From Halobacteriovorax sp. HLS (GTDB lineage: Bacteria; Bdellovibrionota; Bacteriovoracia; Bacteriovoracales; Bacteriovoracaceae), in contig NZ_QOCL01000016.1 in the NCBI RefSeq assembly GCF_004006665.1, forward strand, positions 1 to 64,000: a DNA stretch of 64,000 nucleotides. The letters are read 5' to 3'. Of the stretch, positions 51,851 to 60,276 are shown in pieces; position 1 is the first letter of the stretch; every line of letters starts with the position of its first letter. The notes under the pieces were generated by a model. That model saw nothing but the letters and a program-made list of their open reading frames with translations, searched no databases and was not told the origin of the DNA. Position numbers and translations under genes: made by a program.

Positions 51851-53065
51851 ATGAAAAAATCAACATACTCTATTATTTATAATTTGTTTCTACTTTTCTT
51901 TATGGCGTTTTCTTTTGATGTTGGCGCACAAGGTAAAAGGTATGAAGACTTAAGCACAAGAGAGCTTACGGCCTTTTTAAATGAGGCATGTGATAAAGGT
52001 CAGATGGCAAACTGTTATGAAGTTGGTCAAATGTATCTTTCATCTTCTCAAGAAGTAAATAAAGTAAAAGGTAGAAAGAAGATCATCATGGCATGTAAAG
52101 GTGGTCATCAAAATGCATGTGACTATTTAGATGGTGGATTATCTAAGGATACTGGTTCTCCAATTCTATACTACTCTTCAATTATTCTTATAGGACTTGC
52201 GATCTTTCTTGTAACTATAATGATGTTTCAAGATGAAGAGGAGTTCAAGGCCGCAGAAAAGCTTGATGATGGTGCTAAGAAAGATGCACCAACTGAAAAC
52301 TACGGAATAGTTCTTCGCTACTCTAAACCATTTTTTAAGAGATATGTGACGCCGATTGTTTCTTCGATGAAGTCCAAGAAACATATTAAAGAGAAATATA
52401 GACGTAAATTGGCATCAGCTGGTTTAACAAATGTGCTTTCACCTGAAGACTTCTTTTCTTTTAAAATATTTCTAATCGTTGGATTTCCAATAGTATTTAT
52501 AGCTGTCCGTGTTTTTCTAGAAGAGACATGGCCATTGTCGATCATTCCAGTGATTGGAGCCGTTGGATTTGTTTATCCAGATATATGGATAAAGGGACGG
52601 ATTCAAATGAGACAAAAAGAGGTCATCATGGCGATGCCTTTTTGTGTTGATATGCTTGCCTTATCAGTAGAAGCGGGTTTGGACTTTGTTGCTGCAATGA
52701 CAAAGGTTGTAGAAAAGGCGAAAAGAACACCTTTGTCTGAAGAGTTTGAAACCATGATTAAAGAGATACGAATTGGAGCAAGTAGAGCAGAAGCTTTAAG
52801 AAACTTGGCATGGAGAATTGACCTTATTCAAATTTCTTCATTCTGTGCAACTCTAATTGCTGCAGATTCTGTAGGGGCATCGATTGGTCCTATATTAAAA
52901 GCACTATCGGTAGAAATTAGGCAAAAGAAATCATCTGAGGTTGAAAAAGCAGGAGCCACTGCTGCAACGAAAATTCTATTTCCTATGCTTTTTCTAATAG
53001 TTCCTGCGGTTTTTATAGTCGTTGCGGCTCCAATAGTACTTGAATTAGTAGTGCAGAAAAAATAA
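51851..53065 (+). CDS. TadC-like type II secretion F-domain protein with N-terminal Sel1-like repeats
   Basis: The C-terminal half (about 205-404) is a TadC-type platform domain: MPFCVDMLALSVEAGLDFVAAM, IRIGASRAEALRNLAWR, two or three hydrophobic segments and a hydrophobic end. Residues 1-26 are a signal peptide or anchor. Residues 36-98 contain two cysteine-paired Sel1-like repeats (EACDKGQMANCYEVGQMYL and ACKGGHQNACDYLDGG), expected outside the cytoplasm. A transmembrane segment (about 108-128) links both parts. Usual TadC has no such N-terminus. No tadA or tadB lies nearby. No Shine-Dalgarno precedes the ATG. It overlaps the next gene by one base. Confidence 0.85.
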   Translation: MKKSTYSIIYNLFLLFFMAFSFDVGAQGKRYEDLSTRELTAFLNEACDKGQMANCYEVGQMYLSSSQEVNKVKGRKKIIMACKGGHQNACDYLDGGLSKDTGSPILYYSSIILIGLAIFLVTIMMFQDEEEFKAAEKLDDGAKKDAPTENYGIVLRYSKPFFKRYVTPIVSSMKSKKHIKEKYRRKLASAGLTNVLSPEDFFSFKIFLIVGFPIVFIAVRVFLEETWPLSIIPVIGAVGFVYPDIWIKGRIQMRQKEVIMAMPFCVDMLALSVEAGLDFVAAMTKVVEKAKRTPLSEEFETMIKEIRIGASRAEALRNLAWRIDLIQISSFCATLIAADSVGASIGPILKALSVEIRQKKSSEVEKAGATAATKILFPMLFLIVPAVFIVVAAPIVLELVVQKK

Positions 53066-53415
53066 TGAAGAGATATTTAATAGAATGTAATGATTTAAAA
53101 ATTTGTAATAACGCTAAAGTAGCAAAAAGCTTTAGCTCAAGACTGATTGGTCTAATGTTTAAAGAAAGTATGAAGGACTTTGATGGATTATTAATAACAC
53201 AGTGTAATTCGATCCATACTTTTTTTATGAAATATGATTTAGATCTAATTTTCTTAAATAAGGATTATGAAGTAATTAAAGTAATTGAAAACATGAAACC
53301 TTGGAGAATGTCATTGATGTATTTTTCGGCGACTCAAGTTTTAGAAGTCGTCGCAGGAACATTACAGGGGCGGATTGTTAAAGGTAATAAACTGGATATT
53401 AAATGTATAAACTAG
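53065..53415 (+). CDS. DUF192-family protein
   Basis: The family signature is visible as SSRLIGLMFKESMKDFDGLL, SIHTFFMKYDLDLIFL and VLEVVAGT (116 residues). The family's function is unknown; members are often exported, but no signal peptide is seen here. It is translationally coupled on both sides: one-base overlap with the TadC-like gene and 13-base overlap with the first FHA gene. DUF192 genes are found near Tad and FHA genes in related bacteria (from memory). Confidence 0.85.
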   Translation: MKRYLIECNDLKICNNAKVAKSFSSRLIGLMFKESMKDFDGLLITQCNSIHTFFMKYDLDLIFLNKDYEVIKVIENMKPWRMSLMYFSATQVLEVVAGTLQGRIVKGNKLDIKCIN

Positions 53416-54968
53416 TCGTTGTTGGCGGAAAATTAAGAGGTGAGGAATTCGTTTTAGAAAACGGAGAAAATACACTCGGTCGAAGTGAAGAATGTAGTAT
53501 TCCGTTTGCTGTTAATGGTGTATCTAAAAAACATATGGCCGTCACAGTAACAGGGGATGCTGCTTATTTGCAAGATCTTGGAAGTTCTAATGGTACTTTT
53601 TTAAATGGTAAAATAGTTAAAAGAGCGACTATTAAGAATGGCGATAAAATAGCATTACCAGATTCAATTTTACAGGTTGTGTATGTCGCAGAGAAAAAGG
53701 TCGTAATCAAAAAAAGAGCTACCAGTGAAGAAGATGAAGATGATGTAGATTTCATTACAGATATCCCTCCTGTGCCGGAGTCATTACCTGCTAAGATTAT
53801 TTGGGCATTTAAGTATAAAGTGATGCCTGTCTTTCATGGAATAAATGAAGAATATGAATGGAGAGTTCTGTTTGGAATTCTTTTGGCACTTTTAAGTGTC
53901 GTAACTATTACTTTAACTATTTTTCCGGTAATTCAAACAAGTCGTAGAACTCTTTTACTTGAAACAGCTGAGCGTGGTGCGCACTATGCAGAAGAGATTG
54001 CAAGAACTAACGCAAAAGCTCTTGAAACAAAGAATTTAGATCAGTTGAATACTGCATTCATGAATAATATTAAAGACGTAAAAAGTTACGATCTGTTTGA
54101 CCTTGAAGGTCGAATTGTAAGACCGCTTGTGCGTATGAATAGTTATATTGATGATACTCACTCTATTAAAGTGAAGGAATGGGCTGAAAAGACTAAGAAT
54201 GATGAACTGTCCGTTTATAAGAAAAGGCTACCTGATGATGAAATCGGAATCGGTAGAAAAATTGTTTCATACAATTTTAAGACAGGAGTTATGGAACCGG
54301 TAGGTGTTATCGCCATTAGGTTTAGCCCAAAGTCACTCGCTGTAGAGGCACAAGAAAGTACAAAGTCTTATCTAGAAGCACTTATGACTTCTTTCTTAGT
54401 GGCCATCATATTCTTTGCAATTGTTTATTACTTAACAATACGTCCACTTGAAGAGATGAAATATCAAATTGAAGAGTCCCTTCGTGGAAAGAGAAGAAAT
54501 GTGGAGAGTCGATTTCTATTCAGTGAAATGAATGGCCTTAGATCATCGGTAAATTCAATTTTACAACGAATTCGTGAACTTCAAAGTGAAGAAGCAGATA
54601 GCGAATTTGCTGAAATGGAGTCTGATGAAGGTTATGTAAATAGCTTGAAAGAATTTATGAGAGGCGCGGGCGTAGGTGTTATAGTTCTTAATTCCGAAAA
54701 ATCCGTTGAAGCTGTAAATAATGAAGCTGAAGATATAACAGGAATAAGAGAATCAAGTTCTCAAGGAATGAATATATCTGATGTATCTAGAGAGAAAGGG
54801 TTTGCTGGCACAGTTATTGAGCTATGTGATAACTCTGCTAATAATGGTGGTACTAATCAAGAGGGAGAATATGAGTTACAAGGGAATCCGTATGCGATCC
54901 ACGTAACAGCACTTTTAGGCAGAGATAACTTTGCTAAAGCTTTTTATATAACATTTGTTAAAGCATGA
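53403..54968 (+). CDS. Membrane sensor: FHA - TM - sensor - TM - HAMP - PAS-like
   Basis: The FHA domain occupies residues 1-95, with NTLGRSEECSI, SKKHMAV and DLGSSNGTFLNG as phosphothreonine-binding loops. A first transmembrane segment lies near 156-178, an extracytoplasmic region of about 145 residues follows, then a second segment near 330-350, a HAMP-like helix pair (RPLEEMKYQIEESLRGKRR), and a PAS-like domain near 435-521 (GVGVIVLNSEKSVEAVNNEAEDITG). The FHA precedes the membrane parts, unlike usual receptors. No kinase or phosphatase domain is present. It overlaps the next gene by ATGA. Confidence 0.85.
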   Translation: MYKLVVVGGKLRGEEFVLENGENTLGRSEECSIPFAVNGVSKKHMAVTVTGDAAYLQDLGSSNGTFLNGKIVKRATIKNGDKIALPDSILQVVYVAEKKVVIKKRATSEEDEDDVDFITDIPPVPESLPAKIIWAFKYKVMPVFHGINEEYEWRVLFGILLALLSVVTITLTIFPVIQTSRRTLLLETAERGAHYAEEIARTNAKALETKNLDQLNTAFMNNIKDVKSYDLFDLEGRIVRPLVRMNSYIDDTHSIKVKEWAEKTKNDELSVYKKRLPDDEIGIGRKIVSYNFKTGVMEPVGVIAIRFSPKSLAVEAQESTKSYLEALMTSFLVAIIFFAIVYYLTIRPLEEMKYQIEESLRGKRRNVESRFLFSEMNGLRSSVNSILQRIRELQSEEADSEFAEMESDEGYVNSLKEFMRGAGVGVIVLNSEKSVEAVNNEAEDITGIRESSSQGMNISDVSREKGFAGTVIELCDNSANNGGTNQEGEYELQGNPYAIHVTALLGRDNFAKAFYITFVKA

Positions 54969-55951
54969 AGTCACAGAACGTAAGAATAACAAGAGATTTA
55001 ACTAGACCAGAAGCTGAAGGCGTTCACTTTCGTCTTTTGTGTATGACTGGGAAAAATAAAGGTCTTGTATATTACCTTAAAGGTAAGCGGGTTGTTCTAG
55101 GACGTTCTGATAAAATTGATGTTCAAGTGTTAGACACTAAGAGCTCGAGAGAGCATGCCGAGTTAACAAGATTTGGGAATACATATATCGCAACAGATCT
55201 TGGTTCTCAAAATGGTATTATCATTAATGATCTTAAAGTTAGTCAACACCAATTGACTGATGGAGATAAGATCATCATAGGTCAAACTGTGTTTAAGTTT
55301 AATATCATAGTTGTGAAAAATGAACTCATCGAAGTAGATGAAGAAGATGAAGACGAAGAAGATGATGACGAGGAATACGAAGAAGAGGTAACAAAAAAAT
55401 CAAAGAAGAAGGCCGCTTCTCCTGCTGATAAGAAAAAAAAGTTAATATACGCCGCTGTCGCTGTTCTTCTTGTCGTTATGTTCTTGCCAAGTGAACCGCC
55501 GAAAAAAACAACAAAAAAACCTGTCGTTGCGAAAGAGGATAAATCATTGGCGGAAGTTTTACGCAATCGCAATAAAGACTATGATCAAGAAACTGAAGAA
55601 AAGATAGATGTTATACTACATAGAGGTTATAGGGAATTGAGAGAAAATAACTATATGCGAGCAATTGAAGAATTTAATATGGCCTTAATCTTAAGTCCAA
55701 ATCATGGGAGGGCAAGTGCTTCTCTTGAAAAGTCTAAAATGTTGCTAGATGAACAAGTTAAAAGTCAGTTTAATAAAGCAAAAAGAGAGATTGACTCTCT
55801 GAAATATCAGAAAGCCGTAAGGATTTATTGTTCAATCCTTAGGTATTTGCAAGAAAAGCCTGAAGATGAAAGATATAAAAGGGCAGATAAAGAAATTAAA
55901 GCAATAATCGATGAACAAGGTTTGAGGGCGGATGAAGTTAAGTGTTTCTAA
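54965..55951 (+). CDS. FHA - TM - TPR-like protein
   Basis: An FHA domain (about residues 20-115) shows RVVLGRSDKIDVQV, SSREHAELT and DLGSQNGIIIND. A strongly acidic stretch (EVDEEDEDEEDDDEEYEEE) follows, then Lys-rich residues and one transmembrane segment (KKKLIYAAVAVLLVVMFLPS, about 158-177). The C-terminal 130 residues resemble TPR repeats (YMRAIEEFNMALILSPNHGRA, KYQKAVRIYCSIL). It is the shorter paralogue of the next gene, sharing the order FHA, acidic linker, KKLIY..LL...FL membrane segment and TPR. It overlaps its successor by 20 bases. Confidence 0.85.
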   Translation: MKSQNVRITRDLTRPEAEGVHFRLLCMTGKNKGLVYYLKGKRVVLGRSDKIDVQVLDTKSSREHAELTRFGNTYIATDLGSQNGIIINDLKVSQHQLTDGDKIIIGQTVFKFNIIVVKNELIEVDEEDEDEEDDDEEYEEEVTKKSKKKAASPADKKKKLIYAAVAVLLVVMFLPSEPPKKTTKKPVVAKEDKSLAEVLRNRNKDYDQETEEKIDVILHRGYRELRENNYMRAIEEFNMALILSPNHGRASASLEKSKMLLDEQVKSQFNKAKREIDSLKYQKAVRIYCSILRYLQEKPEDERYKRADKEIKAIIDEQGLRADEVKCF

Positions 55952-58211
55952 AAATAATATTCCGTATGAAGACTTTGACTTAACTAGCGAATTAACAATT
56001 GCTGGTCAGGGACTAAGCTTCTTGATTGGACGCTCTTCTGAGTGTCATGTTCACCTTGATGATAAAATGGTCTCTAGAGAACATGCTGTTCTTGAGTTTA
56101 ATCAGAATAAGTGGAAAATTAGACAGGTATCAGAGTATAGTCCACTTAATATAAATGGAAAAACTGTTACAGAATCAGAGATTAATTCTGGTGATATGAT
56201 AATGATAGGACCTTTTGCTCTAACCTGTTTTGTTACGAATTTATCCATACCAGCGAAAGAAGAAGCTAACGAAGAAATAGTAGAAGAAAATATAGCAGAA
56301 GAAGCTGTGGAGGGAGAAGATGTCTTCACTGAAACTATTGCTGTTTCATCTGAAGAAGCGATACAGGAAGATCCTCTAGATCTAGATAACGAAAATGAGG
56401 ATGTAGATGATTTAGATCCTGTTACTAATGCTGGAGGAAGCTCTCAAATTGGTGAAGCAACATCGTTTTTTTCAGGTCAAAATGATGAAGTCGAGTTTCC
56501 TGAAGACAATGATGGAACTGAAAGCTTCGGAGAACAAATTGATGGTGAAGCAGATCAATATTCTGATGAGTATGCTGATGATGGTTATGAAGATGACTAT
56601 GGACTAGATGATGATTATGAGGAAGATGATAAGACCCAAGTCTTGCAGTCTTTTGCATCATTTGCGTTAGAGCTTTTTGGAGAGTTTGCACCTTATGACA
56701 AATATAATATTGAAGAGACTGAAGTCATCATAGGACGTGACCCTGCAAAATGTCACATTGTTCTTAACGACCCCGAAGTTTCTTCGACGCATGCAAAATT
56801 AAAGAAGAATAATATAACTTGTATATTGGAAGATCTTCAATCAGGGAATGGAACCATTCTCAATGGTGAGAGAATTAATCAAACAGTATTAACCAATTCG
56901 GATGAATTTATCATCGGTTCAACTACTTTTACTTTCCATGTTGGCTCAGACTTCTTAGATAAAGAAAAAGATCGTTTGATGCCCGTAGAGGAAAATCAGA
57001 GTGTTGAAGTTGAAGAAGTAGTAGAAGTCTCTGAAGATTATGAAGGAGACGTGGAAGACTTCGAATTTACGGAAGGTGGAACTTTTGGAGAAACTGAGTC
57101 CGTTGGACCTGTTCCTCTATTTTCTAAAGCCGCACTAAAAGATCCTGTTCAAAGAAAGAAATTAATTTATGGTGTCGTAGGAATATTATTAGCGATTGTC
57201 TTTCTTGCTCCTGATCCTGCAACTGAAGTAAGTAAAAAAAATAAAGAAAAGAACGCAAAGATTGAAGCTGGTCCAAAAAAGGCCCTTTCAACTCCGGAAA
57301 TCAAGCTTAAACCTGAGCAATTAGAATTTGTAGATGCTCAGTATCAACTTGCAAAAGAATTAATTGAAACTGGAAAGTATGAACAGGCAATTTTTGAAAT
57401 TGATAAGCTTAAGCAAGTCATTCCTGAATATAAGAACTCTAATCAGTTATATAATGTCGCTAAGACTAATTTGGCCCGAATTGAAGAACTAGAAAGAAAG
57501 CGAAGAGAAGAAATTAGAAAGAAAGTTCTACTCGCAAAGGTTGCTAAGTTAGTTGTCAAAGCTAAAGAAGCAACTAAGGAGAGACAAGAAGCTCTAGCAA
57601 GATCTCTATTTCAAGAGATCTTAAGCCTTGACCCTGAAAACTTTGATGTTCCACAGCTAAAACTAGAGTTGGATGAGTGGAAAAAAGAAATAGATCGTAT
57701 TGCTGTTGAAAAAGCTGCAAGGGAAGCGGAAAGAAAGCGACAAATTAAAGAACTCGAGCCTGGGAAAACTTATTACACAAAAGGTGATTGGCATAGAGCG
57801 ACGCTCAAACTGGAAACTTTTTTGAGACTTCAGGGCATGGATGCTGATCTAGTAAAAGAAGCAACAAAAATGCTTAAAGAATCAAAAGAGAATTTGAATA
57901 ATGTTATTCAGCCTCTTCTTGGAAAGGCACGCTCTTTAAGTGAAGGCCAAGATCTCAAGGGCTCGTATGAGACGTATAATAAAATATTGAGTTTTGACCC
58001 AACTCATAGAGAGGCATTAAATGAAATGGATGCAATTAGAACAACTCTATATACCAGATCACGTAAGGTTTTCAGAGAGGCCATTATTGCAGAATCGTTA
58101 AGTCTTTTTAATGAAGCAAAAGAGAAATTTCAAGAAGTTCAACAAATATCTCCATCTGATAGTGAATATTATCAAAAAGCTACAGATAAACTCAAAAACT
58201 ATTTGGAGTGA
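55932..58211 (+). CDS. Double-FHA - TM - TPR/coiled-coil protein
   Basis: FHA1 (about residues 10-100) has FLIGRSSECHVHLDDKMVSREHAVLEF. A 140-residue acidic linker follows. FHA2 (about 245-345) has VIIGRDPAKCHIVLNDPEVSSTHAKL and DLQSGNGTILNG. A transmembrane segment (RKKLIYGVVGILLAIVFLAP, about 405-424) leads to TPR-like repeats and a charged coiled region (ELERKRREEIRKK) to residue 759. FHA1 lacks the SxNGT loop (YSPLNINGK instead). The large C-terminal part probably lies across the membrane from the FHA domains. It overlaps the neighbouring genes on both sides. Confidence 0.85.
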   Translation: MKLSVSKNNIPYEDFDLTSELTIAGQGLSFLIGRSSECHVHLDDKMVSREHAVLEFNQNKWKIRQVSEYSPLNINGKTVTESEINSGDMIMIGPFALTCFVTNLSIPAKEEANEEIVEENIAEEAVEGEDVFTETIAVSSEEAIQEDPLDLDNENEDVDDLDPVTNAGGSSQIGEATSFFSGQNDEVEFPEDNDGTESFGEQIDGEADQYSDEYADDGYEDDYGLDDDYEEDDKTQVLQSFASFALELFGEFAPYDKYNIEETEVIIGRDPAKCHIVLNDPEVSSTHAKLKKNNITCILEDLQSGNGTILNGERINQTVLTNSDEFIIGSTTFTFHVGSDFLDKEKDRLMPVEENQSVEVEEVVEVSEDYEGDVEDFEFTEGGTFGETESVGPVPLFSKAALKDPVQRKKLIYGVVGILLAIVFLAPDPATEVSKKNKEKNAKIEAGPKKALSTPEIKLKPEQLEFVDAQYQLAKELIETGKYEQAIFEIDKLKQVIPEYKNSNQLYNVAKTNLARIEELERKRREEIRKKVLLAKVAKLVVKAKEATKERQEALARSLFQEILSLDPENFDVPQLKLELDEWKKEIDRIAVEKAAREAERKRQIKELEPGKTYYTKGDWHRATLKLETFLRLQGMDADLVKEATKMLKESKENLNNVIQPLLGKARSLSEGQDLKGSYETYNKILSFDPTHREALNEMDAIRTTLYTRSRKVFREAIIAESLSLFNEAKEKFQEVQQISPSDSEYYQKATDKLKNYLE

Positions 58212-58954
58212 AAGTGGTAAAATTAAAAAGTTACAGTGTTCATACTAATCAGGGTCCGTATTTACAAATTAATGAAGATGACGCAGTTGTTGATTTAAAA
58301 AATAAGCTCTATTTAATTTTTGATGGCTTCGGTGGTTCAAATATTGGTGACAAGGCCGTAGCTCAATTAAAGGAATCAATTTTAAAGTTTTATACTAAAA
58401 TTGGAGGGGACCCTGATTCAACATTTCCTTTCTACTATAGTCATAAATATTTAATTGAGGGAAATGCTCTAGTAAATTCGATGCATCTAGCGCATGCAAA
58501 TCTAAAAAAAGAAAATCAACAAAAAGACCTTTCTTCAAGAGGAGGAGCATCGTGTATAGCTGCTAGTCTAGCAGACTCTATTCTAACCTTTGCTTCTACT
58601 GGTAATTGTTGCGGCTATATCTTTCGTAGGGGTGTTTTAAAGAGAATTGTTCACCCAGACTCTTTAGAAGCCCTTAGTGAAGACTCTTACGAAATACAAT
58701 TTAGAACAACTCCTATGAGCGGGTTTGGTCTATTTGACGATCTTCATCTTAATGTTTTAGAGCACAAAGTAATTCCTGGTGATCTATTTGTTCTCATGAC
58801 TGATGGTGCATATTCAAGACTAAGCAATGATGAGATTAAACATATAATTGAAGTAGCAGACACAAATGATGGAACAAAAATTGATAAAATTAACGAACTG
58901 GCCAATCAGCGAGGAAACTTAGATAATCAGTCGACTATTTTTCTCCAGTTTTAA
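58208..58954 (+). CDS. PP2C-family protein phosphatase
   Basis: It is a Ser/Thr phosphatase presumed to remove the phosphothreonines read by the neighbouring FHA domains. PP2C metal motifs are seen: QINEDDAVV near 22-30, IFDGFGG near 38-44, SRGGASCIAA near 110-119, LMTDGAYSRLSNDEI near 197-211 and DNQSTIFLQF at the C-terminus. At 248 residues it is a minimal soluble phosphatase. The GTG start overlaps the preceding stop (GTGA). No kinase gene is in the window. Confidence 0.9.
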   Translation: MKVVKLKSYSVHTNQGPYLQINEDDAVVDLKNKLYLIFDGFGGSNIGDKAVAQLKESILKFYTKIGGDPDSTFPFYYSHKYLIEGNALVNSMHLAHANLKKENQQKDLSSRGGASCIAASLADSILTFASTGNCCGYIFRRGVLKRIVHPDSLEALSEDSYEIQFRTTPMSGFGLFDDLHLNVLEHKVIPGDLFVLMTDGAYSRLSNDEIKHIIEVADTNDGTKIDKINELANQRGNLDNQSTIFLQF

Positions 58955-59001: not shown

Positions 59002-60276
59002 ATGGCAGAAAAAATATTAGTCGCAGATGACAGTCTTACAATTCAAAAAGTTATAGCAATCACTTTAGCAAATACTGACTATGAATTAGTCGAGTGTTTG
59101 TCACATAAAGAGCTTGTTTCTCAATTAGAATCAGATACATTTAAATTAGTTCTATTAGATTTTAATTTATCTGACTCAAAATCAGGTTACGAACTTGGAC
59201 AAGAAATTAAAAAATTAAGTTCAGATGTTTCTGTACTAGCAATGCTCGGTACATTTGATACTGTTGATGATCAACAACTTTCAGATTCGGGTATTGAAGA
59301 TAAAATTGTAAAACCTTTTGAAAGTGAAAAATTCATTCAAAAGTGTAGAGCTCTTATTGAAAATAGTGATGCTACTTTAGAAGATGATTTCGCTGAAGTG
59401 GAAATCCAACAAGACTTTGGTAATGATGAGATCGAAGAAGAGCAAGAAATTGGTTCTGATTGGGTTGTAGACTCACCAAAGCCTGATGATATTTCTAGCT
59501 CAAGTCTTGAAGAAGTTGATCAAAAACCGACAAGTGCTGAATTTGATACTGATACTGCCAAAAATGCCCTATCTGAAGAAATGAATAGTTGGGGAATCGA
59601 AGTTCCAGATGTAATTGGTGAAGAAAAGAAATTTGGAATTTTTCCTCCTAAGATTGAATCTGATAATGTCGAACAATCTCTTGAGGAGAATCTTCCTGAT
59701 GAGAGTGATTTAGTTTATCCAGAGTTTGGAACTAGCGAGTTTGAAGAACTTGACCTTGATGATGATGAAGATCTAGATGCTACAGATCCTTCTTTTCAAA
59801 TGCCAACTGACTTTAATGAAAGTACTGAAAATGTGCTATCAATTGAAGAAGAGATTGATGGAGATGAATTCTGGGCCGTAGATGAAGACGGTGAGAGTGA
59901 TTCTTCTAATGTTGTTTCAATCGAAGATGTAACACAACTAAGTCCGAGTGAGAATATTTCTGATATTGATGATTTAGATGATCTAGAAGAAGAGGAAGTA
60001 GATCAAATCTTTTCTGATCTCGAAAATGAAATCGATTCTGAAAAAGAAAGCTATCATGTAGCTGAAACAAAGAATATCCCTATTGAAAAGCTTGATTTTG
60101 ATTCGGATGAAATTGTTGCACAAGTAAAAGAATCACTCACACCAATTTTAGAAGAGCTTGTTAAAAAATTCTGTAAAGATAAGATTGAGCAGGTTGCATG
60201 GGAAGTAATTCCTGATCTTGCTGAGAATTTAATAAAAAAAGAAATTAAAGATATTTCTGATAGCTTAGAAAGCTAG
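59002..60276 (+). CDS. Response regulator with long acidic linker and C-terminal conserved helix
   Basis: A receiver domain (residues 1-120) has VADDS near 6-10, the phospho-acceptor in LLLDFNLSDSKSG near 51-60 and VKPF near 110. A 260-residue, Asp/Glu-rich, probably disordered part follows. The last about 55 residues (ESLTPILEELVKKFCKD, then EQVAWEVIPDLAENLIKKEI) form an amphipathic helix pair of a type I remember at the ends of myxobacterial and delta-proteobacterial response regulators. No DNA-binding domain is seen, so the output is probably protein-protein. Layout recalls RomR-type polarity proteins; this is inference. Its stop shares CTAG with the convergent birA. Confidence 0.8.
   Translation: MAEKILVADDSLTIQKVIAITLANTDYELVECLSHKELVSQLESDTFKLVLLDFNLSDSKSGYELGQEIKKLSSDVSVLAMLGTFDTVDDQQLSDSGIEDKIVKPFESEKFIQKCRALIENSDATLEDDFAEVEIQQDFGNDEIEEEQEIGSDWVVDSPKPDDISSSSLEEVDQKPTSAEFDTDTAKNALSEEMNSWGIEVPDVIGEEKKFGIFPPKIESDNVEQSLEENLPDESDLVYPEFGTSEFEELDLDDDEDLDATDPSFQMPTDFNESTENVLSIEEEIDGDEFWAVDEDGESDSSNVVSIEDVTQLSPSENISDIDDLDDLEEEEVDQIFSDLENEIDSEKESYHVAETKNIPIEKLDFDSDEIVAQVKESLTPILEELVKKFCKDKIEQVAWEVIPDLAENLIKKEIKDISDSLES

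Follow-up and report, generated by a model that had tools for sequence, protein, structure and literature searches.

A six-gene operon on the forward strand of Halobacteriovorax sp. HLS (positions 51851 to 58954 of the 64,000-nucleotide stretch analyzed here, referred to as the window) can be assigned to the Tad pili on all components that were tested, and we consider it reasonably probable (about 0.6) that it supplies the TadC subunit and a phosphothreonine-signaling module to a Kil-like predation pilus (Tad, or type IVc) at the prey contact site. The association is a strong one, in which the module appears as a real and strongly conserved part of the predatory Tad pilus, partly known already through Bdellovibrio mutants. 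A phosphothreonine switch is most likely the best reading of the module, which would act through phospho-regulation. For the step from prey contact to killing, FHA proteins of the Kil system in M. xanthus have been proposed as signal carriers (PMC8460266). The phenotypes of the Bdellovibrio tadC and Bd0474 mutants and the proposal of an FHA cascade for Kil were already known (PMC6561027, PMC8460266); what sequence comparison appears to add is a phylum-wide operon, its ancestral linkage to tad genes, a single conserved kinase candidate, a kinase-less FHA-Cache-PAS sensor, and an active-to-dead phosphatase history. These provide a phylum-conserved parts list, namely, a candidate kinase, the reader whose phosphate-binding motif is best preserved, and a phosphatase apparently intact in the window's class and dead in another one.

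The six open reading frames (ORFs) overlap, in order, by 1, 13, 4, 20, and 4 bases. The first encodes a TadC/CpaH-type inner-membrane platform protein (51851 to 53065; 404 aa; Pfam T2SSF, 61.6 bits), in which a signal-peptide-like segment and a short extension at the N terminus precede the first platform transmembrane (TM) segment. This extension (window positions 51851 to 52150) is highly variable; it is absent in many genera, where the total length is ~300 aa, and elsewhere the length reaches up to ~570 aa. The next gene encodes a DUF192 protein (53065 to 53415; 116 aa; Pfam DUF192, 66.8 bits), whose position is constant in all 20 class loci mapped, and it is followed by genes for three FHA proteins, namely, FhaPAS (53403 to 54968), FhaTPR (54965 to 55951), and FhaFha (55932 to 58211), and for a PP2C-type Ser/Thr phosphatase (58208 to 58954; 248 aa), all on the forward strand. 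The four FHA domains (1+1+2 over the three proteins) score above the Pfam cut-off, as do T2SSF and DUF192. The ORFs and the Pfam and NCBIfam matches agree with the initial annotation, which had described six overlapping genes with four FHA domains, a PP2C-type protein, and TadC. That annotation had the operon end at the PP2C gene; the six-gene block stands, but a gene for a receiver-domain protein with a long acidic linker and a helical C terminus (59002 to 60276, forward strand; Pfam Response_reg, 52.8 bits) comes next in 20 of 20 loci of the window's class (Bacteriovoracia), to which the mapping of this 3' gene was confined.

FhaPAS consists of a cytoplasmic FHA domain (residues 1 to 98), a TM segment (155 to 173), a periplasmic CitA/Cache-like sensor domain (~182 to 309), a second TM segment (326 to 344), a HAMP-like linker, and a PAS-like domain, and it carries no kinase domain. 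It had been read as an FHA/TM/HAMP/PAS protein, of which the FHA domain (Pfam) and the TM segments were confirmed; Pfam reports neither HAMP nor PAS, but an AlphaFold model places a PAS-like domain C-terminal of the second TM segment, and the NCBIfam WalK and NblS models align to residues 200 to 461, with WalK spanning TM-Cache-TM-HAMP-PAS without the kinase part. Because the full-length model has a low pTM (0.35), structural matches were taken per domain only: the FHA domain matches GarA, OdhI, and DgcB (Z, 18 to 19), and the periplasmic domain matches CitA (Z, 13.8). FhaTPR (Pfam FHA, 56 bits) contains a cytoplasmic FHA domain, an acidic linker, a TM segment (160 to 178), and an extracytoplasmic helical/TPR-like region, and FhaFha contains two cytoplasmic FHA domains, a TM segment (411 to 429), and an extracytoplasmic TPR region, with Pfam matches to both FHA domains and to TPR. 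All of these TM segments, two in FhaPAS and one in each of the other proteins, were assigned from hydropathy. Membership of the FHA proteins in other envelope machines was rejected for the type III secretion protein SctD (TIGR02500, 24.8 and 18.3 versus a cut-off of 86 bits) and for the gliding protein GltG (NF033760, at most 55 versus 650 bits).

The window PP2C falls just under the cut-off of Pfam PP2C_2 (21.5 versus 24 bits) and matches NCBIfam Stp1 with an E value of 6e-16 (58.6 bits versus that model's own cut-off of 230). Its only sequence match in the PDB is PppA (6jkv), which makes the Fha/PppA-like logic suggested at the outset a reasonable one. A motif alignment revealed that the metal-ligand motifs NED, DGxGG, TDG, and DN are all present in the window protein; most class members retain the full set, other families have lost part of it, and the Bdellovibrio-type genomes (f6) have none of it. 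The usual PP2C has a phosphate-contacting Arg ahead of NED; this position is substituted even in the window's class, mostly by Leu. An AlphaFold model of the f6 orthologue (L237 sequence), for which orthologues without the metal motifs supplied the alignment, has a confident PP2C fold (pLDDT, 86) matching tPphA, PstP, and PppA. These sequences and the model suggest that the PP2C is probably active in the window's class and probably a pseudophosphatase in the f6 genomes. As the metal ligands are missing in many relatives, erasure is not a conserved function. All the metal-ligand motifs are lost at outgroup loci L237-L244, L209, L211, and L212, an apparent pseudophosphatase family.

The initial annotation reported that the Ser/Thr kinase and the other Tad genes were missing. 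This is true of the window, but searches of the genome, on which all genome-wide statements here rest, located a Tad locus on contig C2 and a kinase on contig C1. The C2 locus (L028) encodes, according to Pfam, a prepilin peptidase, a Flp pilin, two TadE-like proteins, CpaB/RcpC, a secretin, a TadZ-TadA fusion (751 aa; a ParA/CbiA-type domain plus T2SSE, without FHA), and TadB. The Flp pilin carries GQSAVEY, in agreement with the GxxxxEY motif. No TadC is encoded at L028, this being the sole major Tad part missing there. The genome contains six T2SSF domain matches, of which four lie in two double-domain PilC-like proteins (two in each) and the others in the window TadC and the C2 TadB; thus, the window TadC is the only TadC for the C2 machine. 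With it, the genome has the TadC and TadB platform pair, the TadA/CpaF ATPase, the secretin, CpaB/RcpC, the prepilin peptidase, and Flp, by which a Tad/Flp (type IVc) pilus is recognized. Directly after tadB lies a gene for a secreted RHS/DUF6531 protein of ~550 aa (L028:9576-11204, reverse strand), which is conserved alongside the Tad locus in different families (L220-L225) and may be a secreted factor associated with the pilus or a tip-like one. A second CpaF-like ATPase (378 aa; L037:8180-9316, reverse strand) is encoded on contig C3 with no platform genes beside it, and similar second matches occur in most class genomes.

One clear Hanks-type Ser/Thr kinase is encoded in the genome (L029:9898-11961, reverse strand, contig C1; 687 aa), with HRD, DFG, and APE motifs; the two other Pkinase matches come from short frames (243 and 250 aa) and are weak (E values of ~1e-12 to 1e-13). 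The clear kinase matches one group of long outgroup kinases at E values of 1e-77 to 1e-112, and most other kinases at 1e-26 to 1e-38. A Pkinase match is present in all 73 good class genomes, and two operon-bearing outgroup genomes, one of them only 88% complete, have none at an E value of ≤1e-12. The initial annotation had proposed looking in relatives for linked kinase and tadA/tadB genes; kinase genes lie on other contigs or at other positions in the genomes mapped and are not linked to the operon at any locus mapped, and the other tad genes are contiguous with the operon in several families. A gene for a DgcB-like FHA-GGDEF protein (L029:5370-6281, forward strand) lies on contig C1, ~3.6 kb from the clear kinase gene.

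TadC orthologues are found in 122 of 129 class genomes and in all 73 good ones, and the fused TadZ-TadA is likewise found in 73 of 73. TadC, TadZA, and the kinase are therefore core genes, and their co-occurrence alone does not discriminate in favor of a joint function. Gene order is informative. The genes proved not to be scattered in relatives, as the initial annotation had required: the order and strand of TadC-DUF192-FhaPAS-FhaTPR-FhaFha-PP2C-receiver are unbroken in 20 of 20 Bacteriovoracia loci mapped (19 genera), and a wider set of ~99 loci (some genomes being represented twice) likewise never departs from it; the median gaps there are -1, -13, 2, -20, and 3 bases within the operon and 72 bases before the receiver gene. 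Relatives of FhaPAS occur in 208 of 291 genomes of the phylum. Outside the class, several families (L200, L201, L203-L206, L208, L215, and L216) have the block followed on one strand by tadE, tadE, cpaB, rcpA, and tadZA; in contiguous outgroup loci, tadB and a secreted RHS-type protein gene come after tadZA, and this RHS protein is orthologous to that of C2 (E values of 1e-103 to 1e-128). Given the shared orthologue, C2 and the window locus look like the separated halves of a single ancestral locus, and the adjacency of the block to other tad genes in several related families indicates that the split is secondary. This contiguity supports the earlier proposal of a Tad membrane machine coupled to phosphothreonine readers and a PP2C-type protein. 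In other families, the f6 genomes included, the block persists with no tad genes beside it. In one genome (L088/L226), the operon has moved, with its internal order intact, beside new upstream neighbors that are hydrogenase/NADH-dehydrogenase-like subunit genes, which ruled them out as tad genes. The operon is phylum-wide, and the suggestion of a lineage-specific system must be abandoned, Bdellovibrio having Bd0470-Bd0475.

In B. bacteriovorus, Bd0470 (TadC) and Bd0474 (an FHA protein) share an operon with Bd0471-Bd0473 and Bd0475 (PMC6561027). Like the window operon, this single operon has TadC first, followed by the FHA protein Bd0473 (counterpart of FhaTPR; PMC12034629), the double-FHA/TM/TPR protein Bd0474 (counterpart of FhaFha), and Bd0475 (counterpart of the PP2C), the correspondence being drawn from order, architecture, and the literature rather than from an alignment with the HD100 sequence itself. 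A tadC (Bd0470) transposon mutant neither attaches to nor kills prey, whereas a Bd0474 transposon mutant attaches normally and fails to kill or round prey, and complementation was achieved for both mutants (PMC6561027). The initial annotation had staked its proposal on an effect of FHA mutants, and the predation defect of the Bd0474 mutant is such an effect. Bd0474 has two cytoplasmic FHA domains and an extracytoplasmic TPR domain, and in a two-hybrid assay it binds Bd0075, another predation protein (PMC12034629). The f6 genomes share the order TadC-DUF192-FhaPAS-FhaTPR-FhaFha-(PP2C-fold) with the window but differ in that their last protein retains the fold without the metal motifs and that the FHA motifs of FhaTPR and FhaFha are partly lost.

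The M. xanthus Kil system resembles the window system in being Tad-like, with split gene clusters and several FHA proteins, and forms a predation pilus (PMC8460266, PMC12075869); an FHA signaling cascade has already been suggested for it, and Bdellovibrionales systems have been grouped with Kil (PMC8460266). Unlike the Kil ATPase KilF, which has an N-terminal FHA domain, the ATPase of the window genome is fused to a ParA/TadZ-like domain, and a contig scan of Myxococcota records gave only matches of FHA-domain length to FhaPAS. We describe the system as a Kil-like Tad pilus. The type VI secretion PpkA-Fha-PppA system has the reader and eraser logic in common with the operon, including the PppA match; membership in it was rejected, as the window genome contains no sheath protein gene (VipB/TssC) and TagH scores of the FHA proteins are far under the cut-off (31 to 68 versus 120 bits). 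FhaPAS also resembles Bdellovibrio DgcB, in its FHA domain and in the FHA-gated predation signaling proposed for it; DgcB is gated by an FHA-bound phosphothreonine, with Bd3148 named as a candidate for the kinase that writes it (PMC6733907). The output of DgcB is c-di-GMP, whereas the window FHA proteins have no attached catalytic output domain.

The FHA proteins might instead be structural scaffolds of the pilus base, like SctD/YscD with its FHA domain, TM segment, and periplasmic ring-building domain, phosphorylation being irrelevant. FhaTPR and FhaFha have this SctD-like FHA-TM-periplasmic layout, Pfam Yop-YscD_cpl is above its cut-off in all three FHA proteins, the NG or His residue of the motif is missing from the FHA domains of some relatives, and the PP2C is degenerate in many of them. 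However, the GR/S..H/NG phosphate-binding motif is retained in 48 of 49 FhaPAS orthologues, the best kept of the FHA set, and almost all class members also have it in FhaTPR and in the second FHA domain of FhaFha, where outgroups have lost residues. The closest FHA structures are phosphothreonine binders (GarA, OdhI, FhaA, and DgcB), and a PP2C with intact metal motifs stays in the operon in most class members. We regard a purely structural role as unlikely. It is more improbable still that the operon controls a process other than the Tad pilus (type IVa pili, gliding, or c-di-GMP via DgcB), with tadC a mere cotranscribed neighbor. The gating of B. bacteriovorus DgcB by FHA-bound phosphothreonine (PMC6733907) and the closeness of the DgcB-like gene to the kinase gene would fit such a role, but several families have the block directly beside the remaining tad genes, and tadC and Bd0474 belong to one operon in which both mutants block predation (PMC6561027). 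Chance cotranscription of unrelated genes, to which the DUF192 protein with its lack of a known link to Tad might point, can be given hardly any credence, being contradicted by an order and overlaps kept across the phylum even with different flanking genes.

The phosphothreonine-signaling module of a predation pilus is favored because the operon order is unbroken, outgroup tad genes are contiguous, C2 complements TadC, the FHA and PP2C motifs are kept, and the Bdellovibrio mutants are defective. TadC would join the C2-encoded TadB, TadZ-TadA ATPase, secretin, CpaB, and Flp pilin. FhaPAS, given its architecture, may use its CitA-like domain to sense a cue in the periplasm or membrane and its PAS domain to sense one in the cytoplasm, and its FHA domain would read a phosphothreonine. 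The putative writer is the one clear Hanks-type kinase on C1, which is phylum-conserved and would have its substrates in this system. FhaTPR and FhaFha, with FHA domains inside and TPR-type domains outside, may bind phosphorylated partners in the cytoplasm and pass the signal to the pilus envelope complex. The PP2C would reset the switch in the window's class and serve as a catalytically dead scaffold in Bdellovibrio-type relatives, where its motifs are lost. As a result, prey contact would license a step after attachment, either killing or entry. More tentatively, and with the odds somewhat against so specific a version, the Tad pilus may be gated by a dedicated phosphothreonine circuit consisting of a universal membrane kinase, a kinase-less FHA-Cache-HAMP-PAS sensor, a pair of FHA-TPR transmembrane couplers, and a PP2C with catalytic activity in Bacteriovoracia and the role of a pseudophosphatase scaffold in Bdellovibrio, which would constitute a contact-to-killing checkpoint specific to bacterial predators.

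Two further long FHA proteins are encoded elsewhere in the genome (L030:5576-7450, reverse strand, and L031:8970-10946, forward strand). Their genes adjoin those of TPR-containing lipoprotein-like proteins, and they are possibly parts of another envelope machine.
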